Positions 9,690 to 56,171 of a DNA stretch of 56,171 nt are shown here, in pieces. Below the pieces are notes generated by a model that was not told where the DNA came from, ran no database searches, and was given only the letters and a program-made list of their open reading frames with translations. The DNA is from a virus, in IMG/VR virus record IMGVR_UViG_3300049489_000406, positions 1 to 56,171 of that record; one strand, given 5' to 3'. The stretch's first letter is position 1. Each line of letters opens with the position of its first letter. A program made the translations under genes and the position numbers.

Positions 9690-9842
9690 ATGGACCCTAA
9701 AGATATTGATTGGCTGTGCGGAGAATATGAGCCACCTGTTGACCTGTACACCGTACTAGTCAGGACGCCCGAAAGGATCTTACAGGTTCCAAGCCGTCTA
9801 TTAACGCTTGATAACTTAATCGCCGCAATTGATAACAGCTAG
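9690..9842 (+). CDS. Small hypothetical protein
   Basis: A 50-aa acidic protein starting at the ATG at 9690, first gene after the 9631 promoter, with AAAGAGA upstream. It contains a D-I-D-W-L-C-G-E-Y start and an L-x-x-L-D-N-L-I-A-A-I-D helix-like end. No family recognised. Supported by promoter, ribosome site and close packing with the next gene. Confidence 0.5.
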   Translation: MDPKDIDWLCGEYEPPVDLYTVLVRTPERILQVPSRLLTLDNLIAAIDNS

Positions 9843-10432: not shown

Positions 10433-10434
10433 AT

Positions 10435-11540: not shown

Positions 11541-11959
11541 GTAAGAAATACGAGTTTACCGGAGAGACGAGAGTAGTTGTTTATAAAAAATCAGGTGATT
11601 TTGTAAACGTAAATCTAAAAAGGATACGCGCACTTAGGGATTTTGGAGATGTAAGAACAGGTGACCTTGGCGGTTGGATAGAGAAAGAGGACAATCTGAG
11701 TCAAGAAGGCAAATGTTGGGTATACCATAACGCAATCGCTGCTGGAAACTCTAAAATATCTGGTGGTGCTTGCATCAAGGATAATGCTCAGATATTTGAT
11801 AATATTAAAATATCTGAAATGGCTATTATAAGCGGTGAAGCAAGAATATCAGGCGATTCTATAATATCCGGCACGACTCACGTCTCAATAAATGCTTGTA
11901 TATTCGATTCTGAAGAATATCAAAGTGCGCGTACTCTTTTTAAAATAGGTGAGTCATGA
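11537..11959 (+). CDS. Left-handed beta-helix (hexapeptide repeat) protein, paralogue 2
   Basis: A 140-aa paralogue of the 10435 gene with the same order: K-Y-E-F-T-G-E-T start, G-D-L-G-G-W-I-E-K-E-D-N-L-S, then hexapeptide turns rich in I-S-G and D-N. It is coupled by ATGA overlaps to both neighbours. The duplication flanks the His-rich membrane protein. Function unknown; probably a small trimeric beta-helix. Confidence 0.75.
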   Translation: MSKKYEFTGETRVVVYKKSGDFVNVNLKRIRALRDFGDVRTGDLGGWIEKEDNLSQEGKCWVYHNAIAAGNSKISGGACIKDNAQIFDNIKISEMAIISGEARISGDSIISGTTHVSINACIFDSEEYQSARTLFKIGES

Positions 11960-12604: not shown

Positions 12605-12901
12605 ATGAGTGATCTAGTAGTGCCCAAACAAGATAAATGGAAGGAGTTAGTGTATAGGCATAAGGAATCCTTTAACCATTTCTTGTCTGATTTCATGCAA
12701 AAAGCTAATCCTGTCTTCTTAGAGTCTGTAAACTTCGCTCCCGAACATATTCAATTAGATTGTTTCCTTATGGAGATGCTTTTGCATTCATCTTTTCAAA
12801 GTTACGAGGATGTTTTAAAAGTTTTAAGATTGCATGCAATGAACACTATACTTTCCAAAAACGACTACATGGACGTATTAAAAAGGAGAAAACTATGCTA
12901 G
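12605..12901 (+). CDS. Hypothetical protein, paralogue of the 15639 gene
   Basis: A 98-aa helical protein. It shares with the 15639 product a W-K-E-L-V-type start, an F-rich helix, an E-S-V-x-x-x-P-E-type segment, a D-x-x-L motif and an L-H pair. The two copies bracket the PRPP/NAMPT/HAD genes. It overlaps the PRPP-synthetase-like gene by 7 nt (ATGCTAG), so they are coupled. Function unknown, possibly tied to the cassette. Confidence 0.6.
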   Translation: MSDLVVPKQDKWKELVYRHKESFNHFLSDFMQKANPVFLESVNFAPEHIQLDCFLMEMLLHSSFQSYEDVLKVLRLHAMNTILSKNDYMDVLKRRKLC

Positions 12902-13704
12902 ATGAGAGCAATTTTACAATCACTTATTTTAACTCAGGTGAGCCTAGGGTTGTGTTTAAAAATAATATACACGTTGATGCGCTAGAAGTTATTAAGTGGG
13001 ACAGCATAAAACATCCAAACCTCATGGTTCCAATACTTATGGCTGATGCTATATCTACTCACACTAGGGTACATTTTCTTAAACCTCTTATCGCAAGTTA
13101 TTTACCGTTCAGTAGACATGATAGGAATTTCGCGGTTGGTGAGTATGCACACATTGACCCAGCTTTAAACGTGCTTGGTAGATACTTTAGCCGCATAAAA
13201 ACGCATGCTTTACATTGTGAAAATAGGTGGGGCAATTTCATAGAAAACGTTTTAATCAATGAGGATAGCGTAGGTTCTCAAAATAAATTGATCATTTATC
13301 CGGATGCTTCGGCGTACAAGCACTATTCAAGAGATAGCAGAAAACCATATTATTTTCTTGAGAAGAAAAGAAATTTAGCCGATGTGGTAATTTCTTCATT
13401 GCAAGAAGATGCTATACGCGCTGCTTGTGCTGTGAATAATTATGAAGAGATACTATTACTTGATGATATTTGCGATGGTGGAAGAACGTTAATCGAATCC
13501 GCAAAATACATTAGAAATAATATTAACAATAGCACACCAATTAGAGCATGTGTATATCACGCATTCCCTACGTTCATAAAAAATAATCTATGGGAGTATG
13601 TAGATAGACTTTACGTTATTAATGCAGATTCATACAACAGTCTCATTGGTTTATCAGATATACCTAGTAACTTTTTACATAAAATAGAGGATGATCTATG
13701 CTAG
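12895..13704 (+). CDS. PRPP-synthetase-like pyrophosphokinase (Prs/Adps family)
   Basis: A 269-aa member of the ribose-phosphate pyrophosphokinase family. It has Y-L-P-F-S-R-H-D-R, corresponding to the Y-x-P-Y-x-R-Q-D-R loop of Prs, and a PRPP-binding motif L-L-L-D-D-I-C-D-G-G-R-T. It is shorter than bacterial Prs (about 315 aa). The ATG at 12895 follows AAAAGGAG, and the gene overlaps the NAMPT-like gene by 7 nt with an identical ATGCTAG junction. Family members make PRPP from ribose-5-phosphate, or in the NARP1 anti-defence pathway convert ADP-ribose to ADPR-pyrophosphate. No NMN adenylyltransferase is visible here, which favours the latter by inference. Confidence 0.85.
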   Translation: MLDESNFTITYFNSGEPRVVFKNNIHVDALEVIKWDSIKHPNLMVPILMADAISTHTRVHFLKPLIASYLPFSRHDRNFAVGEYAHIDPALNVLGRYFSRIKTHALHCENRWGNFIENVLINEDSVGSQNKLIIYPDASAYKHYSRDSRKPYYFLEKKRNLADVVISSLQEDAIRAACAVNNYEEILLLDDICDGGRTLIESAKYIRNNINNSTPIRACVYHAFPTFIKNNLWEYVDRLYVINADSYNSLIGLSDIPSNFLHKIEDDLC

Positions 13705-15173
13705 TAAATAACCCATTAATGCTTACTGATTTTTATAAGACTGGGCATATTAAACAGTATCCTCCAGGCACCACGCTTATATACTCTAACATGACCGCGA
13801 GGGATGATAAGTATACAATTTGCAATGAATCACCACTATATAATCATAAAGTGATTATGTTTGGTTTACATCATTTCATCTCTTTACTTAAAAATGAGCT
13901 TGACTCAATGAATTATAGAATGGCAGACGTGTATATGGATTTGGTTAAAGAAAGCACAGGAGTAGATCTAAACCCAAAAGATTACTACCGTTTACTTACT
14001 ATCAGTGGCATACCTTTGGAAATTAAAGGGTTTGAAGAAGGTGAGCTTGTTCCTGTAGGCATTCCATTGATAACTGTTCAGAACACGAATACGTCATTTT
14101 TTTGGCTCACCAATTTTATAGAAACCTGGATGAGTTCAGAAATTTGGAAGTGCATCAACAACGCAACAATAGCTTATGAGTACAAGAAGCTATTTACATA
14201 CTACGCCATGCAAACATGCGACACTATCGATCACGTAGACTTCCAAGGGCATGATTTTAGCTTTCGAGGAATGTCTGGCGCAGATGATGCTATTCTAAGC
14301 GGATTGGCTCATTTGACATGCTTCAAAGGCACCGACACGCTTCCTGCTATATATTACGGGAAAGTGTTGTACGGAAAAGATGTGACAGGGTACAGCATTC
14401 CCGCGACCGAGCATTCTGTAATGAGCGCTTACGGAGAAGATAACGAGCTTGAAACTTTTAGACATCTTATTAACGATGTCTACCCTTCTGGCTTAGTGTC
14501 CATCGTTAGTGACACTTGGGATTTTTGGCGTGTTATGAATGACTACTTGTCTATCCTCAAGGATGACATCCTAAAGCGTGAGGGTAAAGTAGTATTCCGA
14601 CCAGATAGCGGCAATCCTGCTGATATTGTTTGCGGCACAGCAACAGAAATTGGTGCTATTGAAGCCCTAGCTAATGTTTTTGGATTTAGTACGAACAGTA
14701 AGGGCTATAAAGAGCTAAACCCAAAAGTAGGACTGATCTACGGCGATGGAATCACAATTAAAACAGTCATTGACATACTCGAGAGATTAAAAGCCAAAGG
14801 CTGGGCGTCTAATAATATTGTCTTCGGTATTGGATCGTATACGTACCAGTACAGCACACGTGATAGCTTTTCTTTCGCTATGAAATCTACTTACACTGAA
14901 AGAGACGGCAAAGGGTATGAAATTTTCAAAAGCCCTAAAACTGGACAGTACAAAAAGTCCGCACGTGGTTTGATACGAGTCGATAAAAATGATAACGGAG
15001 AATTCACTTTTACTGATAGAGTGTCCAGGGGTGAGGAGCTAAAAACTTACTTAACTACGTATTTAAGCAAATACGGAATACAATACGATCACTCATTTAC
15101 AAGCATAAGAGATAAGATCAATGAAAACATACAAAAAGAGTTAAGCAATGCTGGAAAAGATAGTAATATTTGA
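13698..15173 (+). CDS. Nicotinamide phosphoribosyltransferase-like enzyme (NadV/Namat family)
   Basis: A 491-aa NAMPT-family enzyme, full length. Visible signatures are T-D-F-Y-K-T-G-H near the start, H-D-F-S-F-R-G-M-S, F-K-G-T-D-T, A-T-E-H-S-V-M, R-P-D-S-G-N-P and G-D-G-I. NadV makes NMN from nicotinamide and PRPP. In phage NARP1 the homologue joins ADPR-pyrophosphate to nicotinamide to give NAD+ directly. Coupled to the Prs-like gene, it forms a two-gene NAD module. Which of the two chemistries applies cannot be read from the sequence. Confidence 0.92.
   Translation: MLVNNPLMLTDFYKTGHIKQYPPGTTLIYSNMTARDDKYTICNESPLYNHKVIMFGLHHFISLLKNELDSMNYRMADVYMDLVKESTGVDLNPKDYYRLLTISGIPLEIKGFEEGELVPVGIPLITVQNTNTSFFWLTNFIETWMSSEIWKCINNATIAYEYKKLFTYYAMQTCDTIDHVDFQGHDFSFRGMSGADDAILSGLAHLTCFKGTDTLPAIYYGKVLYGKDVTGYSIPATEHSVMSAYGEDNELETFRHLINDVYPSGLVSIVSDTWDFWRVMNDYLSILKDDILKREGKVVFRPDSGNPADIVCGTATEIGAIEALANVFGFSTNSKGYKELNPKVGLIYGDGITIKTVIDILERLKAKGWASNNIVFGIGSYTYQYSTRDSFSFAMKSTYTERDGKGYEIFKSPKTGQYKKSARGLIRVDKNDNGEFTFTDRVSRGEELKTYLTTYLSKYGIQYDHSFTSIRDKINENIQKELSNAGKDSNI
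15123..15150 (+). repeat. 28-bp direct repeat, copy 1 (end of NAMPT-like gene)
   Basis: Matches 15614-15641 at 27 of 28 positions. Copy 1 encodes part of the NAMPT-like C-terminus and supplies the ribosome site and ATG of the HAD gene. The pair brackets the HAD gene and looks like an insertion scar. Confidence 0.85.
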
Positions 15174-15600
15174 CTTAGATGGAACCCTTAGTGACGACTC
15201 ACACAGAGAACACCACATAAGGAATCATCCTCAGAATTGGGAAGAGTACAACAAACACCAATTGCTTGATCCACCAAACATAGCAATTACCAAGATGTTT
15301 GAGGTGTTTTTGCACTCCAAATCTATTAAGCCAGTAATAATAACTGGTAGAACAGAAAGATACAGGAATAAAACTGTTGAATGGATTAAAAAGCATATTA
15401 ATTTAGGTGATTCATTTCCTGACCTGTTTATGAAACACAATGATGATTTTAGAACTGGGCACTTCTTTAAAAGGGAAACAGTGGAGAAATTAATGATAAA
15501 TCACGATGTTCTTTTTGTTGTTGATGATAGGGACAGCGCGGTGAAAATGTGGAGGGATGAAGGATTTACCTGTCTTCAATGTAGGTATGGCGATTTTTAA
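15148..15600 (+). CDS. HAD phosphatase resembling the 3-phosphatase domain of polynucleotide kinase
   Basis: A 150-aa HAD-fold phosphatase. Motif I is F-D-L-D-G-T-L (D9, D11), motif II region is I-I-T-G-R-T-E-R-Y-R-N-K-T, and the C-terminus has V-V-D-D-R-D-S-A-V-K-M-W-R and ends C-L-Q-C-R-Y-G-D-F, very like the phosphatase domain of T4 Pnkp. The kinase domain is absent. It could remove 3-phosphates from broken nucleic acid ends or hydrolyse nucleotides of the NAD pathway. It overlaps the NAMPT-like gene by 26 nt and precedes RtcB. Confidence 0.82.
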   Translation: MLEKIVIFDLDGTLSDDSHREHHIRNHPQNWEEYNKHQLLDPPNIAITKMFEVFLHSKSIKPVIITGRTERYRNKTVEWIKKHINLGDSFPDLFMKHNDDFRTGHFFKRETVEKLMINHDVLFVVDDRDSAVKMWRDEGFTCLQCRYGDF

Positions 15601-15613
15601 AAATGAGAAGAAC

Positions 15614-15641
15614 GAAAACATACAAAAGGAGTTAAGCAATG
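15614..15641 (+). repeat. 28-bp direct repeat, copy 2 (leader of the 15639 gene)
   Basis: Differs from 15123-15150 at one base (GGAG instead of AGAG). It provides the Shine-Dalgarno sequence and ATG of the 15639 gene. Confidence 0.85.
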
Positions 15642-15890
15642 AACGAGAGTAAAAAGTGGCTAGAACTGGTACAGAAACAGGAAAAAAGATTTAAGAATGC
15701 GGTCAATAGTGTTATTTCTCAGATAAATAAATCTTATTTTGAGGAATTGGAATCAGTGCCTGAAAAGTTTAGTGTAGATTATATTTTATTGAACGCATAT
15801 CTTCACGCTTATGACTTCCATGACGACTTCATTAATAACTATGTACCTACGGATTTACGCGAAAGTGTAAAAAAGTGTTTAACTATTTAA
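15639..15890 (+). CDS. Hypothetical protein, paralogue of the 12605 gene
   Basis: An 83-aa helical protein starting at the ATG inside the second 28-bp repeat, preceded by AAAGGAG. It shares a W-L-E-L-V start, an E-S-V-P-E-K-F segment and L-L-x-x-Y-L-H with the 12605 product, but is shorter. It closes the NAD/HAD cassette; the RtcB promoter overlaps its 3-prime end. Unknown function. Confidence 0.6.
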   Translation: MNESKKWLELVQKQEKRFKNAVNSVISQINKSYFEELESVPEKFSVDYILLNAYLHAYDFHDDFINNYVPTDLRESVKKCLTI

Positions 15891-15906
15891 CTTTTAGTGT
15901 TATACT
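15878..15906 (+). promoter_or_regulatory. RtcB promoter, AGTGTTA class
   Basis: TTTAAC (15878-15883), a 17-bp spacer and TATACT (15901-15906). AGTGTTA at 15896-15902 overlaps the -10 exactly as in the 2637 promoter, and the downstream ATGTATTGAAA block matches the 9631 promoter. Confidence 0.7.
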
Positions 15907-15936
15907 AGATGTATTGAAACTTTAAGAAGTACAGTG

Positions 15937-17139
15937 ATGAAAACTGTAGAGATCATAGAAGGTTTTAATGGCGGCATGGCTAAAGCGTGGATTAAGTACG
16001 TTCCACTCGATGGAAACGCTATTGAGCAAGTGCGCCAAACTTCTGACCTTCCTTTTATTTTTAAGCATGTAGCGGTAATGCCTGATGCGCATTACGGTGT
16101 GGGAAGCACAGTAGGCAGTGTAATACCTACAAAAAATGCAATTATTCCTGCGGCTGTAGGAGTAGATATAGGGTGCGGCATGATTGCAGCTAGGCTTTCA
16201 ATTAGTGCATCTAATCTGCCAGACAACTTGGCTGAGATGAGATCGCGCATAGAGTCTACCGTACCCACGGGATTTTCTAATTTCAAAGAACCTCAAAATA
16301 CAGCTATAAACCGTTGGAGCAGTGATTTATCTTTAAATTTCAATAAGTTTATAGCTAATTCAGTGCCAGGAGCTGATGAGAAGATATGCTTAAACCAATT
16401 GGGTACGCTAGGATCAGGCAATCACTTCATTGAGCTATGCATTGATGAAGAGCAGAGGGTGTGGATTATGCTGCACTCGGGGTCGAGAGGCATAGGCAAT
16501 AAGATAGGATCGCACTATATCAGTCTTGCAAAGACTGAGATGGATCGCCTTGGTATAAAATTGCCCAGTGAGAATTTATCCTACTTTACAAAAGAATCTC
16601 AGCACTTTGATGATTACTTTAACGCTGTCTTCTGGGCGCAAGAATACGCAAAGACTAACAGAGAAATTATGCTATTTAATACGCTAAATGCGGTACGTAA
16701 ATTTGTAAAGAATCCGCATCTAGCGGTTGAAGATTTTTGTGTTCAGTGTCATCACAATTATGTCTCTTTAGAGACACACTTCAATGAAGAGGTATACATA
16801 ACGAGAAAAGGCGCTATAAAAGCTGACAAAGGCGTGTACGGGATCATACCTGGGAGCATGGGTGCAAAATCTTTTATCGTGAAGGGCTTAGGCAATGAGG
16901 AAAGTTTTTGTAGCTGCTCCCACGGGGCTGGCAGAGTTATGTCAAGGGGTGAGGCTAAGAAGCTAATAGATTTAGATGATCACGAGCGCGATACTCAAGG
17001 TGTTGAGTGCAAAAAGGATATGTCTGTCATTGATGAAAGCCCGAGAGCCTACAAAAATATCGATTCAGTCATGAAATCCCAAGAGGACCTGGTAGAAATT
17101 GTGCATACGCTAAAACAGGTTTTGTGCGTTAAGGGTTAA
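15937..17139 (+). CDS. rtcB: RtcB RNA ligase
   Basis: A 400-aa RtcB, which joins RNA 3-phosphate or 2,3-cyclic phosphate ends to 5-OH ends using GTP and Mn2+. Motifs in order are P-D-A-H-Y-G-V-G, G-V-D-I-G-C-G-M (metal Asp/Cys), G-S-G-N-H-F-I-E, H-S-G-S-R-G-I-G, Q-C-H-H-N-Y, G-S-M-G and S-H-G-A-G-R-V-M-S-R (guanylylated His). All key residues are present. It has its own promoter. In phages RtcB is thought to repair tRNAs cut by anticodon nucleases; the nearby PNKP-like HAD supports an RNA-repair theme. Confidence 0.95.
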   Translation: MKTVEIIEGFNGGMAKAWIKYVPLDGNAIEQVRQTSDLPFIFKHVAVMPDAHYGVGSTVGSVIPTKNAIIPAAVGVDIGCGMIAARLSISASNLPDNLAEMRSRIESTVPTGFSNFKEPQNTAINRWSSDLSLNFNKFIANSVPGADEKICLNQLGTLGSGNHFIELCIDEEQRVWIMLHSGSRGIGNKIGSHYISLAKTEMDRLGIKLPSENLSYFTKESQHFDDYFNAVFWAQEYAKTNREIMLFNTLNAVRKFVKNPHLAVEDFCVQCHHNYVSLETHFNEEVYITRKGAIKADKGVYGIIPGSMGAKSFIVKGLGNEESFCSCSHGAGRVMSRGEAKKLIDLDDHERDTQGVECKKDMSVIDESPRAYKNIDSVMKSQEDLVEIVHTLKQVLCVKG

Positions 17140-17156: not shown

Positions 17157-17687
17157 ATGACAAACATTATAGAGTTGGCGATCGAGCTTGAAAAGAAATA
17201 CGGCAGTTGGTGGCTTGAACGTGTACCAGAAAAAGACAGATCATACGAGTTATGTAGGCTAGCTGTGAAAGACACGGGATTTAACTTACGAGAAGTACCT
17301 GCGGAGTGTAAAACATATGAGATCTGCTTTGCAGCAATAAAGAAAAGTCCTGATGTCTTAGAGCATGTCCCGCACGAGCATAGAACGATGGAGCTATGCC
17401 TCGAGGCTACTCGTAAGACTTACAGTTTTATGCACATACCGGAGTCTATACTACAAGAGGTAAAGCAGAGAACAGATGAATATCGCGCAAACAAACTTGT
17501 AGAACGGGCGTGGAAAGTGATTGTTAAGCACGATGGAATGATGCTTAAAAACGTGCCTGACCAATTCAAAACTAAAGAAGTGTGTAGGTTAGCTTTTAAG
17601 GCTAACAATGACGCGGTCAATTACGTGCCACATTATCTACTTACTAGAGATATGAAGCGTTTTATAAAGTCAAAAGGTGATTTATGA
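17157..17687 (+). CDS. DUF4116 repeat protein 1
   Basis: A 176-aa protein made of about four DUF4116 units with the pattern L-x-x-V-P-x-x-x-R-T-x-E-L-C-x-x-A-V. Middle residues (about 95-120) form a charged helical linker shared with the 18395 and 20212 proteins. DUF4116 occurs in amoeba-associated bacteria and giant viruses and has no known function. It follows RtcB by 17 nt and overlaps the next gene by ATGA. Confidence 0.75.
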   Translation: MTNIIELAIELEKKYGSWWLERVPEKDRSYELCRLAVKDTGFNLREVPAECKTYEICFAAIKKSPDVLEHVPHEHRTMELCLEATRKTYSFMHIPESILQEVKQRTDEYRANKLVERAWKVIVKHDGMMLKNVPDQFKTKEVCRLAFKANNDAVNYVPHYLLTRDMKRFIKSKGDL

Positions 17688-19128: not shown

Positions 19129-19333
19129 GCAATATTTGTTGGACGTAATAAAAAGAAACGACATCAGCATACGATCCTTTAAACAATATTTTTTTCAGGA
19201 GCCGAGTTATTCCCATATCGATACAGCCACTACGTTGATAGAGGGTGAGAAGATAAAGCATCTTAAGGAATCAAAATCACTCGATGCTTATAACAGGCTA
19301 ATAGGTAAGAAACCTATACGGAGTGGAATATGA
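19112..19333 (+). CDS. Hypothetical protein (GTG start)
   Basis: A 73-aa basic, helical protein. The GTG start has AGGGAGA just upstream inside the previous gene. It overlaps the next DUF4116 gene by ATGA. No motif recognised. Confidence 0.5.
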   Translation: MDVKDRQYLLDVIKRNDISIRSFKQYFFQEPSYSHIDTATTLIEGEKIKHLKESKSLDAYNRLIGKKPIRSGI

Positions 19334-19644
19334 AAAAAGATGAGCAATATTGTGATGATAGTTACTGGTTAAAACAGGTAAAAATAGACGGGAGCCTCGA
19401 CGATGTCCCAACGGAACATAGGACTTATGAAGTATGCCTTGAAGCCGTGAAGGTGTGGCACTTAGCACTAAATCACGTACCAGATCAGCATCTAACGCGC
19501 GATTTGATATCTGCGTCTTTGACTAGAGCTTATGATAACGGATACGAAGAAGGCGAATCGGCAGGGTATCATCACGGGTATGAGCAAGGCGAATCTTTTG
19601 GGTATGAACAGGGTTATAGTGACGGAGTAAAACATGAAAACTAG
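19330..19644 (+). CDS. DUF4116 protein 3 with GY-rich C-terminal repeats
   Basis: A 104-aa protein with about two DUF4116 units (D-D-V-P-T-E-H-R-T-Y-E-V-C and L-N-H-V-P-D-Q-H) followed by a C-terminal tail of G-Y-x-x-G repeats (G-Y-E-E-G, G-Y-H-H-G, G-Y-E-Q-G, G-Y-S-D-G). The same tail end (G-Y-x-D-G-V-K-H-E) recurs as a 19-codon ORF at 20163. It overlaps the next small gene by 11 nt. Confidence 0.65.
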   Translation: MKKDEQYCDDSYWLKQVKIDGSLDDVPTEHRTYEVCLEAVKVWHLALNHVPDQHLTRDLISASLTRAYDNGYEEGESAGYHHGYEQGESFGYEQGYSDGVKHEN

Positions 19645-19828: not shown

Positions 19829-20113
19829 ATGGATAACGAGCAGTACTGGTTAGATCAATTTGGTATGCCACGCGATAAACGTGACAATAAATATGCTGAT
19901 CTTAAAGATGTACCACATCATTTAAGAACTCTCAAGGTTTGTAAGTCAGCGTTGTACAGTTGCCCTTTCAATTTAATACACGTGCCCGTTCATCTCAGAA
20001 ATGATGAGATAGTACAAATAGCCTTAGATGATTTAATACATGTACCCTATTATTTTAGAGATAATGATACGGTACAAAGAGCCTTAGATGCTATAGAAGC
20101 AGTTGTGAGCTGA
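19829..20113 (+). CDS. DUF4116 protein 4 (short)
   Basis: A 94-aa protein with about three compact DUF4116-like units (D-V-P-H-H-L-R-T, H-V-P-V-H-L-R-N, H-V-P-Y-Y-F-R-D); the last two are nearly tandem duplicates that share a D-L-I-H-V-P-type run. GAGGA precedes the ATG. Confidence 0.65.
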   Translation: MDNEQYWLDQFGMPRDKRDNKYADLKDVPHHLRTLKVCKSALYSCPFNLIHVPVHLRNDEIVQIALDDLIHVPYYFRDNDTVQRALDAIEAVVS

Positions 20114-21354: not shown

Positions 21355-22071
21355 ATGAGAGAAAAGATTATAGCGACAGATGATACGATCCACGACATTG
21401 TTAGGCGCGAGATAGAGATAGTCGGAAATGATGGAGATTTGAACCACATCGATACGAGTCGGGTGACGAATATGTCAAGACTTTTTCAATACGTGGGGGA
21501 TTTTAACTGTGATATATCGAAATGGGACACCTCTAGGGTTACTACTATGCGTTTTATGTTTAAGGAGTGCTACGCATTTAATCAACCCATTGGTAATTGG
21601 GATACTTCTAATGTCTCCGATATGTACTGTATGTTCTCCGAATGTTTTAACTTTAATCGGGATATTTCGAAGTGGGATACCTCTAAAGTTAAAGATATGC
21701 GTTGGATGTTTTATAGGTGTTCTTCATTTAATCAACCCATTGGTGGTTGGGACACATCTAAAGTTACTGATATGCTCGCGATGTTCGATGGGTGCAAATC
21801 ATTTAATCAACCCATTGGTGGTTGGGACACATCTAAAGTTACTGATATGCGCTTCATGTTTAATGTGTGCTATTTCTTTAATCAAGACATCTCGAAATGG
21901 GATACTTCTAAGGTTACCGATATGGGCGCCATGTTTTATGGGTGCTCATCATTTAATCAAGACATCTCGAAATGGGATACTTCTAAGGTTACCAGTATGT
22001 GCTGGATGTTTAAATACAGCATCAAAATGGAAGAGAAAAACAAACCAAAATTTACCAACCAGGGGGATTAG
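21355..22071 (+). CDS. BspA-like DUF285 repeat protein 1
   Basis: A 238-aa protein of about seven BspA-like units (about 25 aa each) with the pattern [16 protein letters not shown]-x-x-M-F. The first 45 residues form a conserved cap (I-I-A-T-D-D-T-I-H, then [15 protein letters not shown]). Such leucine-rich-like repeats are known from Mycoplasma, Bacteroides and protists, often in adhesion. No signal peptide is visible, so it is probably cytoplasmic. AGAGG precedes the ATG. Confidence 0.85.
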
Positions 22072-22074
22072 AAA

Positions 22075-23511
22075 ATGAGACCGAGGATTATCGCTACAGA
22101 TGATACGATCCATGAAATCGTCAGACATGAGATAGAGATAGTCGGAAATGATGGAGACCTGAACCATATTGATACGAGTCAAGTCACGGATATGTCAGGA
22201 CTTTTTGAAGACTTGGAAGATTTTAACTGTGACATATCGAAATGGAACACATCTAAAGTTATTACTACGCAGCGTATGTTTTGGGGTTGCTCTTCATTTA
22301 ATCAAGATATTTCAAAGTGGGATACCTCTAATGTTACCGATATGTGTGGGATGTTTCATGGATGCCATTCATTCAATCAAGACCTATCGAAGTGGAACAC
22401 GCCTAAAGTTACTAATATGAGTTCGATGTTTAGTGAATGCAGCTCATTCAATCAAGACTTATCTAAATGGGATACTTCTAATGTCACTACTATCGCTGCA
22501 ATGTTCGAATGGTGCTCTTCATTTAACCAAGACCTGTCGAAGTGGGACACTTCTAAAGTTACGGATAAGCTATGGATGTTTTTCAGATGCGACAAAATGG
22601 AAGAGAAAAACAAGCCTAAGTTTAACAACCTTGAGGAGCAAAAAATGAGACCAAGGATTATAGCGACAGATTATACTATCCACGACATTGTTAGACGTGA
22701 AACAAGAATAGTTGGGAACAATGGGGATTTGAACCATATTGATACGAATCAAGTCACGAATATGTCAGGACTTTGTGAACATCTGAGATATTTTAACTGT
22801 GATATATCGAAATGGGATACCTCTAATGTTTCCGATATGAGTAGAATGTTCTACGGATGCTTATCATTTAATCAAGACATCTCAAAGTGGGATACCTCTA
22901 AAGTTACAGATATGACCTTTATGTTTTGTGAGTGTTTATCATTTAATCAAGACCTGTCGAAATGGGATACCTCTAAAGTTACTGATATGGGATGTATGTT
23001 TGATAGGTGTTCTTTATTTAATCAACCTATTGGCAATTGGAATACATCTAATGTCACTGTTATGAGATATATGTTTGATGAGTGTCGCTCATTCAATCAA
23101 GACCTCTCCAAGTGGAACACGTCTAAAGTTACTGATATGCGCGGGATGTTTAGTAGATGCTTTTTATTCAATCAAGACCTCTCCAAGTGGAACACGTCTA
23201 AAGTTACTTATAAGTGCTCGATGTTTGACGACTGCGACAAAATGGAAGACAAAAACAAACCAAAATTTACCAACCAAGAGGAACAAAAAATGAAACGACA
23301 ATACACTAAAAGAACAAAGGATGAGAAAGTCACACGTCTTATCCTATGTGTTGAGAAATTGATGACTAAAAGGGATGTCATTAATGGTAAAATACAATCC
23401 ATCAACGAAAAAATAGCAAAGATTAAACATGGAAAGTTTAATAAACTGATAGGTGGTTTAACGGACGATCAGAAACAAATGATAGTGAAATACATCGAGG
23501 ATAGGTTTTAA
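22075..23511 (+). CDS. BspA-like DUF285 protein 2, a fused tandem gene duplication
   Basis: A 478-aa protein made of two complete copies of the 21355-type protein joined in frame at about residue 190 ([10 protein letters not shown], then M-R-P-R-I-I-A-T-D). In the 21355 gene the same junction is a stop, then the next ATG, so loss of a stop fused the copies. The last 70 residues are a Lys-rich coiled coil not found in the first gene. The stop overlaps the methyltransferase start (TAATG). Confidence 0.85.
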   Translation: MRPRIIATDDTIHEIVRHEIEIVGNDGDLNHIDTSQVTDMSGLFEDLEDFNCDISKWNTSKVITTQRMFWGCSSFNQDISKWDTSNVTDMCGMFHGCHSFNQDLSKWNTPKVTNMSSMFSECSSFNQDLSKWDTSNVTTIAAMFEWCSSFNQDLSKWDTSKVTDKLWMFFRCDKMEEKNKPKFNNLEEQKMRPRIIATDYTIHDIVRRETRIVGNNGDLNHIDTNQVTNMSGLCEHLRYFNCDISKWDTSNVSDMSRMFYGCLSFNQDISKWDTSKVTDMTFMFCECLSFNQDLSKWDTSKVTDMGCMFDRCSLFNQPIGNWNTSNVTVMRYMFDECRSFNQDLSKWNTSKVTDMRGMFSRCFLFNQDLSKWNTSKVTYKCSMFDDCDKMEDKNKPKFTNQEEQKMKRQYTKRTKDEKVTRLILCVEKLMTKRDVINGKIQSINEKIAKIKHGKFNKLIGGLTDDQKQMIVKYIEDRF

Positions 23512-24377
23512 TGTCAAAAATAGTAAATGCTGACGTGATAGAAACGCTTACTACATTAAACATAACGAACTATTTTGACGTAATTATTGCAGACCCTCCA
23601 TACAACATAAATAAAAATTTTGGGGTAGGTTCTGATTCGGTTCCTTTACCTGATTACATTGATTGGTCAAAACACTGGATTGATCTTTGTCTTAAGTCAT
23701 TAAAACCTAACGGTATAATGTATATCTATGGATTCACTGAAATACTTGCGCACATCGCCGTAAACTATCCGTTGGGCAAACAACGGTTTTTGATATGGAG
23801 TTACCTGAATAAGGTAGCTCCAAATTCTAAGTTTTGGCAGAGGTCGCACGAGGCTATACTGTGCCTTTGGATAGATAAAAAACCCGCGCTAGAGATAGAT
23901 CAAATACGTGAGCCATACTCTAAAGGGTACGCTAATGCGCACGGTAAAGAAAGAAAAAGTACTAAAGGGCGTTTTGGTTCTAAGGCAACTGTATATAATG
24001 TGAACCCACTAGGTGCGATGCCGAGAGATGTTATAAGAGTACCTGCTTTAGCTGGAAAATCATCAGAGAGACCTTTTATGTGTAGAACCTGCGGAGGCGT
24101 TATGTATGATTCTGAGTATTTAAAAAGCCATCTCGGACATAGCATTTTACAACATCCAACACAAAAACCAGCAGAGCTTACAAAAAGACTTTTACTATCG
24201 GCAGCTAAACCTACGCGCGGAAAAGTACTAATACCTTTTTCGGGTTCGGGTTCTGAGTGCTTAGTAGCCAAAAGTTTAGGCTTTGAATTTTTAGGGGTAG
24301 AGCTAAACTGGGAATATGTAACCTACGCAGAAAATCTAATAAGGAGAAATAATGGACTTGCAAGCAGCGTCATTTGA
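23511..24377 (+). CDS. DNA adenine/cytosine-N4 methyltransferase (beta class)
   Basis: A 288-aa amino-methyltransferase. The catalytic motif IV is A-D-P-P-Y-N-I (28-31 D-P-P-Y), and the S-adenosylmethionine motif lies at the C-terminal end (P-F-S-G-S-G-S-E-C, then F-L-G-V-E-L), giving the beta-class order. Between them a C-R-T-C-G-G and two His form a likely zinc site. No restriction partner is nearby, so it is an orphan phage enzyme that could protect phage DNA. It overlaps the RNR gene by 26 nt. Confidence 0.88.
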   Translation: MSKIVNADVIETLTTLNITNYFDVIIADPPYNINKNFGVGSDSVPLPDYIDWSKHWIDLCLKSLKPNGIMYIYGFTEILAHIAVNYPLGKQRFLIWSYLNKVAPNSKFWQRSHEAILCLWIDKKPALEIDQIREPYSKGYANAHGKERKSTKGRFGSKATVYNVNPLGAMPRDVIRVPALAGKSSERPFMCRTCGGVMYDSEYLKSHLGHSILQHPTQKPAELTKRLLLSAAKPTRGKVLIPFSGSGSECLVAKSLGFEFLGVELNWEYVTYAENLIRRNNGLASSVI

Positions 24378-26229
24378 CGTGTGGAAACAAAAATATCAAT
24401 TAAAAGATGAGCACGGCACAGCAATAGACAAAGATGTTGATAGCATGTTCCAGAGAGTAGCTAAAACCCTCGCAAGCGTAGAATCTAATAGTGAACACTG
24501 GTATGAGCGCTTTTTGTGGGCGATGAGACGCGGCGCGTACCCTGCTGGTAGAATACTAGCTAATGCGGGTGCCCAGGGGTATAAGCCCAACACAACACTC
24601 ATTAACTGTACAGTGAGTCGTGTTATAGATGACTCCATTGAGGGTATAATGCTAGCACTGTCAGAAGCTGCAAGCACACTTAAAACAGGCGCTGGGATAG
24701 GGTATGACTTCTCCACTCTGCGACCTAAAGGTGCATACGTACGCGGTGCAGGTGCGAAAACATCCGGATCACTATCGTTTATGGACATATTCGATAAGAT
24801 GTGTTTTACAATCTCATCAGCAGGAGGCAGGCGCGGCGCTCAGATGGCTACAATGCGTGTAGACCATCCCGACATCATAGATTTTATTAAAGCTAAAAGA
24901 GAAAACGGGCGCTTAAGACAGTTTAATATGTCAGTGTTAGTTACAGATAGCTTTATGCACGCTGTAGATACCGATCTTGACTGGCAACTGTGTTTTGCGG
25001 GTAAAGTGTATAAAACAGTTAAAGCCTGTGACCTCTGGGATTTGATTATGCGTTCAACGTATGACTATGCGGAGCCAGGGGTGCTTTTTATAGACAGGAT
25101 CAATGAAGGGAACCCCCTTGGGTTTATTGAGCAGATAACTGCTACGAACCCGTGCGCGGAGCAGCCATTACCCCCTAATGGCGCGTGTCTTTTGGGTTCA
25201 GTAGACCTTACAAAATTTGTCAGATACCCTTTTTCAGATGATGCCGTTTTTAACTATGAAGATTTTATAGAAGTAGTTTCGGTGTTTGCACGTATGCTAG
25301 ATAACGTTGTAGATATAAACAACCTCCCCCTTGAGTCTCAGCGACAAGAAATCATGATGAAACGCAGGCACGGCATGGGGTTTTTGGGTTTAGGTTCCGC
25401 ATTGACTATGCTAAAAATAAAGTACGGATCACCTGAGGCGATACGACTTGCACGCACAGTCTCTATAGCGATGGCGCGTACGAATTACGAGACCGGTGTA
25501 GACCTGGCTTATGAAAAGGGTGCTGCTCCGATATTGAAAGATGAAAACAACTTAAAAAACTATGTCGACAGAATAAAAAAACTCGGTTACGTAAATGATG
25601 ACTATCTAAGAAAAATGGAAGCGTGGGGGTGCAGATACACACATGCAACATCTATAGCCCCTACGGGCACTCTATCCCTGTCCGTGGGAAACAATGTGAG
25701 CAATGGCATAGAGCCTACATTTTGTCACGAGTATGCTAGAAACGTCATCATAGATGGGAAGAAAACAAAAGAAAAAGTTAACGTTCTATCTTATGAGTAC
25801 CTGCGATACAAATCTATGCATCCTGAGGCTACTGTAGATACGCTGCCCGATTATTTTGTTACCTCAGATAGCATAACGCCCGAGCAGCATGTAGATATGC
25901 AAGCAGCGTGTCAGCCATCTATAGATTCTAGTATATCAAAAACAATTAACGTCCCCACTGATATAAGCTTTGATGCTTTTAAAGACATATACCGCTATGC
26001 TTTTAGTAAAGGGTTGAAAGGATGCACCACATTTAGATTTAATCCTGAGGCTTTTCAGGGGGTACTGGTTAAAGAATCTGATCTAAAAAACACTATTTAC
26101 AACTTCAAACTCGAAAATGGTGAGACGGTATCATGTACGGGCGACACAATAATTACGTATGACGGAGAGAATCACACAGCAGCAAATCTATACGATGCTA
26201 TTAAGGAAGGTTACTATGGTAAATTCTAA
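24352..26229 (+). CDS. nrdJ: Class II (adenosylcobalamin-dependent) ribonucleotide reductase, main subunit
   Basis: A 625-aa class II ribonucleotide reductase. Markers are L-I-N-C-T-V-S-R, T-G-A-G-I-G-Y-D-F-S, the active-site N-P-C-A-E-Q-P-L-P, L-L-G-S-V-D-L, and S-I-A-P-T-G-T-L-S-L-S. It ends with H-T-A-A-N-L-Y-D-A-I-K-E-G-Y-Y-G-K-F, the usual end of phage NrdJ main subunits. The TSCPD part is encoded separately at 26523. It supplies dNTPs and needs B12 from the host or environment. Confidence 0.92.
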   Translation: MDLQAASFDVWKQKYQLKDEHGTAIDKDVDSMFQRVAKTLASVESNSEHWYERFLWAMRRGAYPAGRILANAGAQGYKPNTTLINCTVSRVIDDSIEGIMLALSEAASTLKTGAGIGYDFSTLRPKGAYVRGAGAKTSGSLSFMDIFDKMCFTISSAGGRRGAQMATMRVDHPDIIDFIKAKRENGRLRQFNMSVLVTDSFMHAVDTDLDWQLCFAGKVYKTVKACDLWDLIMRSTYDYAEPGVLFIDRINEGNPLGFIEQITATNPCAEQPLPPNGACLLGSVDLTKFVRYPFSDDAVFNYEDFIEVVSVFARMLDNVVDINNLPLESQRQEIMMKRRHGMGFLGLGSALTMLKIKYGSPEAIRLARTVSIAMARTNYETGVDLAYEKGAAPILKDENNLKNYVDRIKKLGYVNDDYLRKMEAWGCRYTHATSIAPTGTLSLSVGNNVSNGIEPTFCHEYARNVIIDGKKTKEKVNVLSYEYLRYKSMHPEATVDTLPDYFVTSDSITPEQHVDMQAACQPSIDSSISKTINVPTDISFDAFKDIYRYAFSKGLKGCTTFRFNPEAFQGVLVKESDLKNTIYNFKLENGETVSCTGDTIITYDGENHTAANLYDAIKEGYYGKF

Positions 26230-26533
26230 ATACTCTAGACTTGTTGACATCTACTCATCGATTAGAGAGCAAGATTTTAACAAGCTTTTATACGGCAGAA
26301 ATTTTAGTGAGCAGTCGGTTATTATCCTAAGAAAAATAATACTAGACAAGCAGTGTCAAAAAATCGTTGCTAAACAGTACGGCGTGTCTCAGGCTTTTAT
26401 AAGCGGTTTAATTTCAAGATTCATAAGGGCTAAAATGTTCAAATGCGAAACGTGCGGACGTGTTTTTTTGCGATCATGTAACTTATCAGCCCACGTTAAG
26501 ACTTGCAAAAGGAGCCAAAGTGATGATTATTGA
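26216..26533 (+). CDS. TrfB/KorA-like HTH protein with C2H2-type finger
   Basis: A 105-aa protein. Residues about 15-65 match TrfB/KorA-type DNA-binding domains (F-N-K-L-L-Y-G-R-N-F-S-E-Q-S, then V-A-K-Q-Y-G-V-S-Q-A-F-I-S). The end carries one zinc finger, C-E-T-C-G-R-V-F then H-V-K-T-C, of C2HC type. The ATG at 26216 follows AAGGAAGG and lies within the end of nrdJ. It sits between the two reductase genes, overlapping both, and may regulate them. Confidence 0.7.
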   Translation: MVNSKYSRLVDIYSSIREQDFNKLLYGRNFSEQSVIILRKIILDKQCQKIVAKQYGVSQAFISGLISRFIRAKMFKCETCGRVFLRSCNLSAHVKTCKRSQSDDY

Positions 26534-27023
26534 TAGTAAAATAGTTTCTGTTAGCGTTAACTCTAACGAGTGCAGTAGTACTTTAACTGTAAGACCCGAG
26601 ATGTTACCTGGCGTTACGTACAAAATAAAACCACCAGGTCACAATGATGCGATGTACGTTACAATAAACTCACTAGATAACAAGCCTTTTGAGCTTTTTA
26701 TACAGTCCAAAAATGCAGAGCACACCCAATGGACATCTGCGCTTACCCGTGTGATCTCTGCCATTTTTAGAAAAGGTGGGGATGTAACTTTTCTCATCGA
26801 TGAGCTGAAATCCATACACGATCCGCGAGGCGGTCACTTTGCGCATGAAAAATACGTACCTTCTTTGGTGGCTGAAATTGGGTACGTCTTAGAAAAGCAC
26901 TTAAATCTTAAAAAAGAAGCAAAACCCACAAAAAAGACGTGTCAAAAATGCAATGGTGTAAACGTTGAGGTTTCCGGCGGATGTTCAATATGCAGAGATT
27001 GTGGAGATTCTAAATGCGAATAA
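26523..27023 (+). CDS. TSCPD-domain protein, second part of split class II reductase (NrdJb-like)
   Basis: A 166-aa protein. Residues about 25-140 are the TSCPD domain found at the end of long NrdJ enzymes (G-V-T-Y-K-I-K-P-P-G, I-Q-S-K-N-A-E-H-T-Q-W, D-P-R-G-G-H-F, Y-V-P-S-L-V-A-E-I-G). The C-terminus has C-Q-K-C-N-G and C-S-I-C-R-D-C-G-D-S-K-C, a cysteine set that could rereduce the active site. It is the second polypeptide of the split reductase. Overlaps both neighbours. Confidence 0.85.
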   Translation: MIIDSKIVSVSVNSNECSSTLTVRPEMLPGVTYKIKPPGHNDAMYVTINSLDNKPFELFIQSKNAEHTQWTSALTRVISAIFRKGGDVTFLIDELKSIHDPRGGHFAHEKYVPSLVAEIGYVLEKHLNLKKEAKPTKKTCQKCNGVNVEVSGGCSICRDCGDSKCE

Positions 27024-52669: not shown

Positions 52670-53914
52670 TTAAAACACATCAAAACCAGGATTATTAGCA
52701 TTATTCATTAAATAAGTCAATCCGTGCACTAAAGCATCTAAACGATTTGGCGATCTTAACGTTTCAAGCGGCACGTATTCTGTCATCTCACTTTCTAAAT
52801 CGTTCAAGCCAGGCGGGTGATAAACTCTACCCTCTTCATACAGATATAGCACCGCATCGGCTCTCACATGCTTACCCACTTTAGAATGTACTTTAACTAC
52901 TCGCGCTGTAGAATTAAGCGTTTTTAAATATGTCTTTAGAAGATCACCTACACCGTTTGACTCATACACTATGCAATTTGCTCTATACATATTGTACGCA
53001 TTCACAACTATATTGCCCCACGCCCCTGGGGATGTACGTGTCGAGAGATCAGCGATAACATTGACCCCGTGCCCGTCCGTACCTAAAACTACAATACCCA
53101 CCATATCCGAATTCTCACCTGATGTAGTCGAGGGATCAACAGCTACGCATATGCGACTTTCAACTACTTTCTTCGCTGCATTGGCATAGATAATGTGATT
53201 GTAGTTAAATATCGCACCAATTTTGTCGCTCAAAAACTCACCGTGTTCAAAACGCGCTCGCTCTCTACTTGACATAGACGCAAGCACTTTTGTTATATAG
53301 TCTGAGTTTATGTTATCCGCATTATCAACGGGATTCATTTTTAAGTACGCAAAATCCTCAGGACTTGCGAGTTTAATTTTTGATATAGGGTCGACTTTTT
53401 CTACGAACAGCTTATAAGTCCAGTGCGACATCGATGGTGGATTGCAACCGTAAAAAATCTTATTCTTAAGCTGAGTTTTTTCAGCGAGTCGCGACAGTAC
53501 GATAGCGCGTGACTCATAGCTTATCTGTGAGCACTCTTCTAAAAATATCGTAGAAAACTCATTACCCAATATTTTTTCTGTTCGCTCTTTATCGTCAAGC
53601 CCGCCAAAAAGAATACGTGAGCCGTTGGGTAACTCAAGATAGTAATCTGTTCTGTTGAGATGCACTTTAAGCTCAGGAAAACACACGCTCAGAAGCTTCG
53701 GTAACGTGCCATTCAAGATTGAAGTTTTAAGATGATTGAATCTCTTTCTAAAAACTGCATGATTACTCTTACACTTGAGTGCTCGAATAATCAGATTACG
53801 CATATTGATAAACGTCTTGCCAGATCGTGCGCCGCCGCACAGCATTATGTGCGTTGCAGCAGAGGCGTGCAGCGCTGTAGCTTCTATCTGTTTAGCTGTC
53901 TTTACAAAAGACAC
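52670..53914 (-). CDS. Terminase large subunit
   Basis: A 414-aa packaging motor. Walker A is G-G-A-R-S-G-K-T (K33), Walker B T-I-F-L-E-E-C, coupling motif Y-G-C-N-P-P, and the nuclease domain starts V-A-V-D-P-S-T-T. GTG start. It is of the PBSX-like terminase type. The small subunit is separated from it by the 54025-55615 plus-strand island. Confidence 0.92.
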   Translation of the reverse strand: MSFVKTAKQIEATALHASAATHIMLCGGARSGKTFINMRNLIIRALKCKSNHAVFRKRFNHLKTSILNGTLPKLLSVCFPELKVHLNRTDYYLELPNGSRILFGGLDDKERTEKILGNEFSTIFLEECSQISYESRAIVLSRLAEKTQLKNKIFYGCNPPSMSHWTYKLFVEKVDPISKIKLASPEDFAYLKMNPVDNADNINSDYITKVLASMSSRERARFEHGEFLSDKIGAIFNYNHIIYANAAKKVVESRICVAVDPSTTSGENSDMVGIVVLGTDGHGVNVIADLSTRTSPGAWGNIVVNAYNMYRANCIVYESNGVGDLLKTYLKTLNSTARVVKVHSKVGKHVRADAVLYLYEEGRVYHPPGLNDLESEMTEYVPLETLRSPNRLDALVHGLTYLMNNANNPGFDVF

Positions 53915-54037
53915 TCACAAGTCCTAACATGCCAATTATTTTAAGATGTTAACTACATTAATGGTGCAGTGCAACAGCGCTAAGGGTCAGCAACTGCAAG
54001 GATTCTCACAATTTCTACAGATATTTGAGTAAAACTA

Positions 54038-54066
54038 TTGACACTAGTGTTAAGTCTTGATATGAT
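54038..54066 (+). promoter_or_regulatory. Island promoter 1 with palindromic operator
   Basis: TTGACA (54038-54043), 17-bp spacer, TATGAT (54061-54066). The palindrome ACACTAGTGT (54041-54050) overlaps the -35, and AGTGTTA lies at 54046-54052. The whole block of about 60 bp, from ATATTTGA through CTCAAGTTAA, recurs at 54706 and 55220. Confidence 0.88.
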
Positions 54067-54106
54067 GATCTCAAGTTAAACAAATAAACAGATAGGGTAG
54101 AAAAAA

Positions 54107-54685
54107 ATGTTTAAATTGCTATCGGAAACGTTAATCAATCTCGAAGACAAATTTAAAGAGTGCTACTTAAATTCAGGCGATGACATACAAAACCTAATAT
54201 TAATAAATCTTAACATACGTTACTCTGAATATATGGACATTACTTATGAATCCAGGACTGATTTAATAGACACAATAAAATCATTGCTAGGCAACGAAGA
54301 TAAGTGCCACGAAGAAGTAAATTATCTATTCTACATATTTAACTGTACACTTGGTAGTGAGATAGTAAAATTTATGAGAACAACCTCACTAATGCTCTAT
54401 TATAAAGAAGTAAAAACGTATGGGGACAATAAAAATGGGAGCGTTTGCATGATACGAAGAAACAGAAACAGCGAACCTCAAGCGCACAAACTAGTATGCG
54501 GGTTAAAATTTAGATCAAACGCGCTAAAAGACTTTAGAATAGCCACATTAAAATCTTTTATAGCCTTCTATCTAGAAGAAACAAGAGAAAATATGGGACA
54601 CGGAATATACTCAGCGTGCTACGACAATCTGCTAAAAGCGGACGAAATACTAATGCGTGAAGAAGACTACAAGCAAACAAAATAA
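54107..54685 (+). CDS. Hypothetical early protein, island unit 1
   Basis: A 192-aa mostly helical protein with a basic middle (M-I-R-R-N-R-N-S-E) and no recognised family. It lies behind promoter 1 with a purine-rich leader and an AGGGTAG ribosome site. Opposite in strand to the terminase genes around it, so it is expressed separately from the late block. Confidence 0.6.
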   Translation: MFKLLSETLINLEDKFKECYLNSGDDIQNLILINLNIRYSEYMDITYESRTDLIDTIKSLLGNEDKCHEEVNYLFYIFNCTLGSEIVKFMRTTSLMLYYKEVKTYGDNKNGSVCMIRRNRNSEPQAHKLVCGLKFRSNALKDFRIATLKSFIAFYLEETRENMGHGIYSACYDNLLKADEILMREEDYKQTK

Positions 54686-54705
54686 AAAATATTTGAATAA
54701 AACTA

Positions 54706-54734
54706 TTGACACAAGTGTTAAGTCTTGATATGAT
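54706..54734 (+). promoter_or_regulatory. Island promoter 2 with operator variant
   Basis: TTGACA (54706-54711), 17-bp spacer, TATGAT (54729-54734). Operator ACACAAGTGT (54709-54718) differs from the other two copies at one base, so binding may be weaker. Confidence 0.88.
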
Positions 54735-54776
54735 GATCTCAAGTTAAGCAGTTAAACAAAACTAAAAGGCGAAAAA

Positions 54777-55019
54777 ATGAATCAAGAAGACATCAAAAAA
54801 GTATACGAAATGTTAAAAAGCCGTACTATACACCCGCGCGGAAGTTTCGATGACGCTGGCAGGTGGTATGCTAATAATGACGACTTAATAAACGTGAGAG
54901 CACCCAGCCGTGCATTTCCATATTCTCAAATGAATGCGTGCAGAACATTAAAGTACGTGAAAGCTGTAGCTGAAAAATTTAGCTGCGAAACAGTTGAAGA
55001 GTTAAAGCTAAGAGTGTAG
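54777..55019 (+). CDS. Hypothetical early protein, island unit 2a
   Basis: An 80-aa protein with a helical start, a basic aromatic centre (R-G-S-F-D-D-A-G-R-W-Y) and a helical end. No family recognised. Driven by promoter 2, with AAGGCG as ribosome site. Confidence 0.58.
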   Translation: MNQEDIKKVYEMLKSRTIHPRGSFDDAGRWYANNDDLINVRAPSRAFPYSQMNACRTLKYVKAVAEKFSCETVEELKLRV

Positions 55020-55024
55020 ATAAT

Positions 55025-55210
55025 ATGTATCAAGTGATCGTTGTAAATAGCATAGAGTATCTAGTAAAAGAGAACGAAAACACCGCAGTAGTATATCAAA
55101 AAGTTAAAAAGGATTTCAAATACGTATGTACTTTAGAAATACCTGATAGCACCGCCACACACTACATAGCAAATTGGCTACTTAACTGCACAAAAAGTGA
55201 AAATATTTGA
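55025..55210 (+). CDS. Hypothetical early protein, island unit 2b
   Basis: A 61-aa protein, 5 nt after the previous gene. Alternating strand pattern (Y-Q-V-I-V-V-N, T-A-V-V-Y-Q-K-V) suggests a small beta-rich fold. Its stop lies within the promoter 3 repeat block. No family recognised. Confidence 0.52.
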   Translation: MYQVIVVNSIEYLVKENENTAVVYQKVKKDFKYVCTLEIPDSTATHYIANWLLNCTKSENI

Positions 55211-55219
55211 ATAAAACTA

Positions 55220-55248
55220 TTGACACTAGTGTTAAGTGCTGATATGAT
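55220..55248 (+). promoter_or_regulatory. Island promoter 3 with palindromic operator
   Basis: TTGACA (55220-55225), 17-bp spacer, TATGAT (55243-55248), operator ACACTAGTGT (55223-55232). Third copy of the block. Confidence 0.88.
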
Positions 55249-55291
55249 GATCTCAAGTTAAACGAATAAACGAAACAAACAGGATAGAAAA

Positions 55292-55615
55292 ATGAAGCAT
55301 CAAAACGTAATAGCACTAACAAACAGAGTAGGCAAATTAGTATCAGAACATGAAGTGAAATTCACATTTAACGACTACATCGATGACGATTGCAGAGTAG
55401 ATCAGTACGCAAGAGTGACTGTATATAAATACGAAAAAGAATCAATCATAAAAGTAGAAAAATCAGGCTGGGTAAAATCTTTTTACATGCAACCCGAGGA
55501 TGACATTATAGAGATGCTACTATCGATGCCCACGGGGAATGGTGTAGTTAAAACGATGACACGCAGAGAATTTAATTCTATCTTTGACGTAAATAAAGGT
55601 TTTATCTTATTTTAA
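55292..55615 (+). CDS. Hypothetical early protein, island unit 3
   Basis: A 107-aa protein, charged, with beta-type segments (V-K-F-T-F-N-D-Y, Y-A-R-V-T-V-Y-K-Y). No family recognised. AGGATAG ribosome site. Its stop overlaps the small terminase stop by 4 bp. Confidence 0.57.
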   Translation: MKHQNVIALTNRVGKLVSEHEVKFTFNDYIDDDCRVDQYARVTVYKYEKESIIKVEKSGWVKSFYMQPEDDIIEMLLSMPTGNGVVKTMTRREFNSIFDVNKGFILF

Positions 55616-55938
55616 AGCGCAGCATCTTGATAGTCTAACACTACTTTCTGCTCAATCTGTGGTTTTTCAACTTCTCCCGTTTCTCTCCATCCTGCCATCG
55701 CGCCGAGATAGTACTTTGCAGCGGGTAGGCTGCCGTCCATTGCTTGTTGCAGTACGACATCTGCGACTTTGTTGATAGCTTTTGCCCTGCCCCTTGCAAC
55801 AGCCGCTTGATACTCGGGCACTTCATTGACGCGCCGCACAAAGTCCAAAACATTAATGTTAAGAATAGCTGCAATCTGCGCAACGCTCAAAGTCCGCGCG
55901 AGCTTTTCAATCTCTTCAAGTTTTTTATCTTTTGCCAT
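55612..55938 (-). CDS. Probable terminase small subunit
   Basis: A 108-aa protein with an HTH-like start (L-S-V-A-Q-I-A-A-I-L-N-I), an R-G-R-A-K-A-I-N-K-V helix and a D-G-S-L-P-A-A-K-Y-Y-L-G motif, as in phage terminase small subunits that bind the packaging site. ATG 55938 has TTGGAA upstream; TTG 55965 is an alternative start. Separated from the large subunit by the early island. Confidence 0.75.
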   Translation of the reverse strand: MAKDKKLEEIEKLARTLSVAQIAAILNINVLDFVRRVNEVPEYQAAVARGRAKAINKVADVVLQQAMDGSLPAAKYYLGAMAGWRETGEVEKPQIEQKVVLDYQDAAL

Positions 55939-55958
55939 GCTTTCCAACGCCGTAACTG

Positions 55959-55988
55959 TTGACAAAACAAATATTACACGTTTATATT
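55959..55988 (+). promoter_or_regulatory. Plus-strand promoter directed into the terminal repeat
   Basis: Perfect TTGACA (55959-55964), an 18-bp spacer and TATATT (55983-55988), or TTATAT with 17 bp. It lies upstream of the small terminase gene and points the other way, toward the 13-bp repeats. No plus-strand gene follows before the window ends. Confidence 0.6.
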
Positions 55989-56031: not shown

Positions 56032-56171
56032 ACCCATCTCTATCACCCATCTCTATCACCCATCTCTATCACCCATCTCTATCACCCATCTCTATCACCC
56101 ATCTCTATCACCCATCTCTATCACCCATCTCTATCACCCATCTCTATCACCCATCTCTATCACCCATCTCT
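56032..56171. repeat. Tandem 13-bp repeat (about 10.8 perfect copies) at the window end
   Basis: The unit CCCATCTCTATCA repeats without any change to the last base, so the array is cut by the window edge and its full length is unknown. There are no spacers, so it is not CRISPR. Iteron-like replication or packaging sites fit, especially if the molecule closes onto the AT-rich region at 1-143. An assembly break or artefact in a repeat is the alternative. Confidence 0.85.

Follow-up and report, generated by a model that had tools for sequence, protein, structure and literature searches.

Arbiol in 2010 and Comeau in 2014 reportedly described PeSLs, the promoter-early-stem-loop cassettes of T4-type phages. 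As far as two citing papers recount them (PMC4503421, PMC4177764), these are repeated early-promoter cassettes that border small, unrelated and variable genes. The establishment regulon of the Bacillus plasmid p576 has repeated promoters of the EGeRS2 type with operators before unrelated genes, controlled by the RHH repressor Reg (PMC8708921). In acr-aca operons the core promoter contains an inverted repeat and is repressed by Aca autorepressors (PMC9410906), and the host takeover module of SPO1 consists of 26 genes in the terminal region whose functions have been tested (PMC6873191). Mycobacteriophages of cluster O carry more than 30 dyads of 17 bp, about a third of them within genes (PMC4351075), and those of cluster K have SAS/ESAS elements, with the SAS located at start codons (PMC3203893). 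Repeated promoter-operator cassettes for accessory genes are a layout known from other phages and plasmids; new in the island described here are the splitting of the terminase pair by such cassettes and the link to a distant fourth promoter. The island is located in an IMG/VR virus record of 56,171 bases, the whole of which was analysed and is called the window below.

Like p576, the island has several strong promoters, with putative operators, before separate and unrelated small operons, which in p576 are variable and are expressed, as would be those of the island, in a transient burst after entry into a new cell. The p576 operators, however, consist of paired heptamers in direct orientation on either side of the promoter, whereas the island has a single imperfect dyad on the -35. 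One p576 copy also drives the repressor gene whereas a repressor was not recognised in the phage, and p576 is a plasmid. No RHH match was found with Pfam and NCBIfam in the island and the scanned early genes, the proteins being orphans. Both the island and the acr-aca operons, whose promoter is early, have a strong promoter with an inverted repeat in its core, but there one operon is found where the island has several identical promoters; neither an Aca-type HTH gene nor a known anti-CRISPR was recognised in the island, although a very diverged HTH is possible. The PeSLs, as the citing papers present them, share with the island the repeated promoter cassettes at the borders of small unrelated genes, whereas the island blocks have no stem-loop or terminator in or between them and the phage is not T4-type. 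Clustered small genes, mostly without known function, behind strong host-type promoters are also found in SPO1, where they are early genes, but there 26 terminal-region genes have tested functions, and a gene common to both was not detected. The cluster O and K elements are likewise phage-specific, repeated and placed before unrelated small non-structural genes, but the more than 30 cluster O dyads are partly intragenic and the SAS lies at start codons, not at -35 boxes. As in morons, the island is inserted between genes that are adjacent in relatives and has its own promoters, but its units have no terminator of their own. By analogy, the island appears to work like the p576 regulons, the acr-aca operons and the SPO1-type modules, membership in any of them not being shown.

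Promoter blocks and genes between the terminase genes

Plus-strand genes in the left half of the window encode products for replication and nucleotide metabolism (primase/helicase, exonuclease, DNA polymerase, helicase and ribonucleotide reductase), and minus-strand genes in the right half encode structural products (tail, head and terminase). The proteins that were scanned included no recognisable integrase or phage repressor. Relatives of the large terminase are at most 47% identical, and a close relative of the phage is absent from all collections used. The region of the terminase genes contains the following features:

52670–53914, minus strand: terminase large subunit, 414 aa (PHROG 979, E=4e-57; Pfam Terminase_3 and Terminase_6N/6C)
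54019–54084, plus strand: predicted promoter-operator block 1, with -35 TTGACA at 54038–54043, TG, and -10 TATGAT at 54061–54066
54038–54053, plus strand: putative operator 1, TTGACACTAGTGTTAA, a dyad on the -35
54107–54685, plus strand: gene of unit 1, 192 aa, orphan, coding by score
54687–54752, plus strand: predicted promoter-operator block 2, beginning 2 bp past the unit 1 stop codon
54706–54721, plus strand: putative operator 2, TTGACACAAGTGTTAA, within block 2
54777–55019, plus strand: gene a of unit 2, 80 aa, orphan, coding by score
55025–55210, plus strand: gene b of unit 2, 61 aa, orphan, coding by score, stop codon within block 3
55201–55266, plus strand: predicted promoter-operator block 3, including the stop codon of the 61-aa gene
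55220–55235, plus strand: putative operator 3, TTGACACTAGTGTTAA, within block 3
55292–55615, plus strand: gene of unit 3, 107 aa, orphan, coding by score, its stop overlapping the convergent stop of the small terminase
55612–55965, minus strand: probable terminase small subunit, 117 aa (PHROG 309, E=4.7e-7)
55959–55988, plus strand: another promoter of early type, TTGACA-18-TATATT, which overlaps the start of the small terminase and is directed to the right end

The preliminary description claimed three near-identical consensus-promoter blocks of about 60 bp, and these are present at a length of about 66 bp and a spacing of 668 and 514 bp, differing pairwise at 6, 5 and 7 positions over the 66 bp. 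In every block TTGACA and TATGAT are 17 bp apart, with a TG that extends the -10, and together match the consensus at 11 of 12 positions. Between the blocks the hexamers and both arms of the palindrome are unchanged, and all variation lies in the upstream sequence, in the spacer, at the centre of the palindrome or in the leader. The window has three occurrences of the 22-bp sequence TGATATGATGATCTCAAGTTAA, where 0.00 are expected. The palindrome that had been reported over all three -35 regions, ACACTAGTGT of 10 bp, is perfect in blocks 1 and 3, whereas in block 2 (ACACAAGTGT) the central pair is broken. Taken alone such a dyad is not rare, since one this good is expected in 6% of blocks of this composition with one mismatch allowed, and in 13% for the perfect part.

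With block 2 directly behind the 192-aa gene and the stop codon of the 61-aa gene inside block 3, blocks and genes are packed head to tail. No terminator-like site is found on the plus strand at the unit ends, and an Rfam scan of the window gave no match. The leader folds no better than shuffled sequences (z=-0.6), and a leader stem-loop was rejected; a single-stranded DNA hairpin promoter of the Frpo type was rejected as well, with a DNA fold of z=0.12 and 106 of 200 shuffles folding as well.

All four ORFs of the island are coding-like under a codon model trained on the phage itself, and the earlier statement that the genes are mutually unrelated and lie on the strand opposite to the late genes agrees with the ORFs, their strand and their lack of mutual similarity. 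The four proteins have no confident match in Pfam, PHROGs, NCBIfam, PADLOC or the PDB sequences, the 61-aa protein having one weak PHROG match (E=0.027). The 192-, 80- and 107-aa proteins have no relative in IMG/VR, and among phages the 192- and 107-aa proteins gave chance matches alone (E>=5). A structure model of the 192-aa protein was discarded (pLDDT 41), as was the poor model of the 107-aa protein (pLDDT 63), which had no match at E<=0.001 in PDB or BFVD. The full block was not found in IMG/VR or in GTDB genomes, nor was its 21-bp core in IMG/VR. Three of the island genes have a GC content of 33–35% and one of 40%, which overlaps the 34–45% of the native early genes, and a foreign origin is therefore not proven by base composition.

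The probable small terminase has no terminase match in Pfam or NCBIfam and no relatives in IMG/VR. Of the 71 relatives of the large terminase with enough sequence upstream of it, 69 carry an ORF of 82–203 aa that has the same orientation, abuts the large-terminase gene and ends near its start. Ten of these ORFs were sampled, and six of them match families of the terminase small subunit. A wedge of 1.6 kb of opposite-strand genes at this place is therefore unusual, as had been suggested. The map also fits an alternative view, with the island on the early strand at the point of early/late divergence, the early-type promoter at 55959 likewise directed rightward, and the small terminase as the misplaced gene.

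A fourth copy of the core and the proposed regulon

The core of the blocks, AAACTATTGACACTAGTGTTAA, is 22 bp long and partly a dyad, and the window contains four sites with 0, 0, 1 and 2 mismatches to it. The expectation is 0.00 and none was found in 100 shuffles, and in 60 third-order Markov genomes the best matches had 5–7 mismatches. Far from the island are located:

9625–9646, plus strand: fourth core copy, AAACTATTTACATTAGTGTTAA, covering the -35 of a TTTACA-16-TATACT promoter (9631–9658)
9690–9842, plus strand: first ORF past the fourth copy, 50 aa, orphan, coding by score

The promoter at 9631–9658 has 10 of 12 consensus matches and is located where the helicase gene ends. Its core agrees with that of the blocks at 20/22 positions and its flanks at only 12/34 and 11/35, which is the chance level, indicating that the core itself is conserved and that the site is not a recent duplicate. 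All four sites lie on -35 boxes and on the plus (early-side) strand. This conservation argues for a functional 22-bp element, putatively a binding site, and the four sites support, as far as sequence can, a regulon of four promoters. The copy at 9625–9646 was overlooked in the preliminary description, and the operator idea put forward there is strengthened by it. From 9690 to about 12.6 kb follows a run of small ORFs, mostly without known function, among them the 50-aa ORF, ORFs for lipoprotein-like and membrane proteins, and a pair of paralogous YdcK-like beta-solenoid proteins (PHROG 5070) at 10366–10833 and 11537–11959.

We propose that the island represents an accessory regulon of early genes, made up of duplicated promoter-operator cassettes, with a burst of expression that is then shut off, and on balance we consider this somewhat probable. 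A cassette would consist of a strong σ70 promoter with its -35 inside the 22-bp element and of the one or two small orphan genes behind it. Once the phage has entered, host RNA polymerase would transcribe the three units and the diverged 9.6-kb promoter as one co-regulated set, a DNA-binding protein encoded by phage or host would then bind the dyad over the -35 and close all four promoters, making the burst transient, and the identical blocks at the unit borders might allow units to be gained, lost or exchanged by recombination. Control of this kind is documented for acr-aca promoters (PMC9410906) and for the p576 establishment regulon (PMC8708921). Among the phage proteins scanned, none was recognised as a regulator of HTH, RHH or other type, and the repressor may thus come from the host or be a new kind of phage protein. 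A wider version, in which a virulent phage would have a dispersed regulon of at least four promoters under one phage-specific operator, with a new class of repressor among the orphans and the block serving as a modular slot between the terminase genes in which unrelated counter-defence genes accumulate, seems to us unlikely.

The accessory-cassette reading given earlier is in part borne out, being favoured by the repeated σ70 promoters, the unrelated orphans, the early-side strand and the odd placement. Its second element, host takeover or anti-defence, is something that we infer, since the island proteins have no relatives in the libraries searched; by analogy with SPO1 (PMC6873191) it is the most likely role for orphan genes that are small and strongly promoted. 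Repeated promoter-operator blocks would offer a sequence handle on accessory early genes for which homology is not needed, and the candidates for host takeover or counter-defence would be the four island proteins and the run of small ORFs at 9.7–12.6 kb. They also indicate that such a cassette can occupy an otherwise tightly coupled terminase pair.

Rival readings and similar dyads in other contigs

The blocks might instead be strong constitutive early promoters without an operator, in which case they would be copies of a good promoter together with its leader and the AT-rich sequence upstream, the dyad would be incidental and the units moron-like; we regard this as somewhat unlikely. The imperfect dyad, with its broken centre in block 2 and a p of about 0.06–0.13 by itself, counts against a regulon and in favour of such promoters, as does the failure to find a regulator among the phage proteins scanned. 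The block homology, which spans the whole promoter and part of the leader, also favours such promoters. However, the fourth copy keeps 22 bp (20/22) reaching past the -35 hexamer, whereas the spacer, the -10 surroundings and the upstream sequence are randomised, and neither AAACTAT nor TAGTGTTAA would be needed by a pure promoter. The plus-strand unit ends, lacking a terminator-like site, are also unlike those of classical morons. That the island genes are late or virion genes on the opposite strand by chance is hardly credible, for although the island sits within the packaging gene cluster, it lies on the strand opposite to the late genes, has consensus host-type promoters, and gave no structural-protein match.

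An exact-pattern search for similar operators found eight viral contigs with TTGACACNNGTGTYAA. In three unrelated ones this sequence lies on the -35 directly ahead of hicA-hicB (L086, 7334–7349; L089, 9695–9710; L091, 4689–4704), and it is a candidate consensus for a HicB operator. The hicAB toxin-antitoxin operons are a class that is commonly autoregulated (review PMC11594946), and the matches show the architecture in such an operon class, not an action of HicB in the phage. A single GTDB match (L093) was dismissed as chance, as it precedes a long ORF whose translation, read by eye, resembles a prolyl-tRNA synthetase.

The dyad could accordingly be thought of as the site of a host regulator, for instance a HicB-type antitoxin, that controls the phage units or is titrated by them, a reading that we hold to be very unlikely. 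It draws on the occurrence of TTGACACNNGTGTYAA on a -35 in all eight contigs, on the three of eight promoters that precede hicA-hicB, and on TTGACACACGTGTTAA, present in two such contigs and 2 mismatches from the island site. On the other hand, the exact WAG-centred promoter pattern has a single match in 84,980 prokaryote genomes, the one in L093, before an apparently ordinary gene, hicAB was not recognised in the phage, and any dyad on a -35 must begin TTGACA, which makes convergence easy. We judge the likeness between the island dyad and the hicAB promoters to be convergent.

Further observations on the genome

Near the left end, at 24–145, an AT-rich non-coding stretch contains a long inverted repeat (GGGGGTTCAAAAAGTTTT ... 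AAAACTTTTTGAACCCCC), possibly an origin or end structure. At 56032–56171 a perfect 13-bp tandem repeat, ACCCATCTCTATC, of 10.8 copies reaches the contig end and is probably the point where the assembly stopped.

PRPP synthetase-like and nicotinamide phosphoribosyltransferase genes in tandem are followed by polynucleotide kinase and RtcB RNA ligase genes at 12760–17139, and look like an NAD+-restoration pair beside RNA-repair genes; NAD+ restoration and RNA repair are counter-defence themes. The adjoining region at 17157–17687 encodes three DUF4116 repeats (Pfam E=5e-16), with possibly weaker ones at 19330–19644 and 19829–20113, which to our knowledge are unusual in a phage and may hint at the host. 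The proteins encoded at 21509–23511 (PHROG 17273) have tandem repeats of 75 bp, corresponding to 25-aa units of the pattern W-TSKVTDM--MF; they resemble surface repeat proteins and are, as far as we know, rare in phages. The large subunit of ribonucleotide reductase is distributed over two ORFs at 24352–27023 (PHROG 84 profile positions 201–799 and 793–913) with another ORF between them, a split that may be due to an intron, an intein or another interruption, and beyond it an HNH-like ORF is located at 27949.
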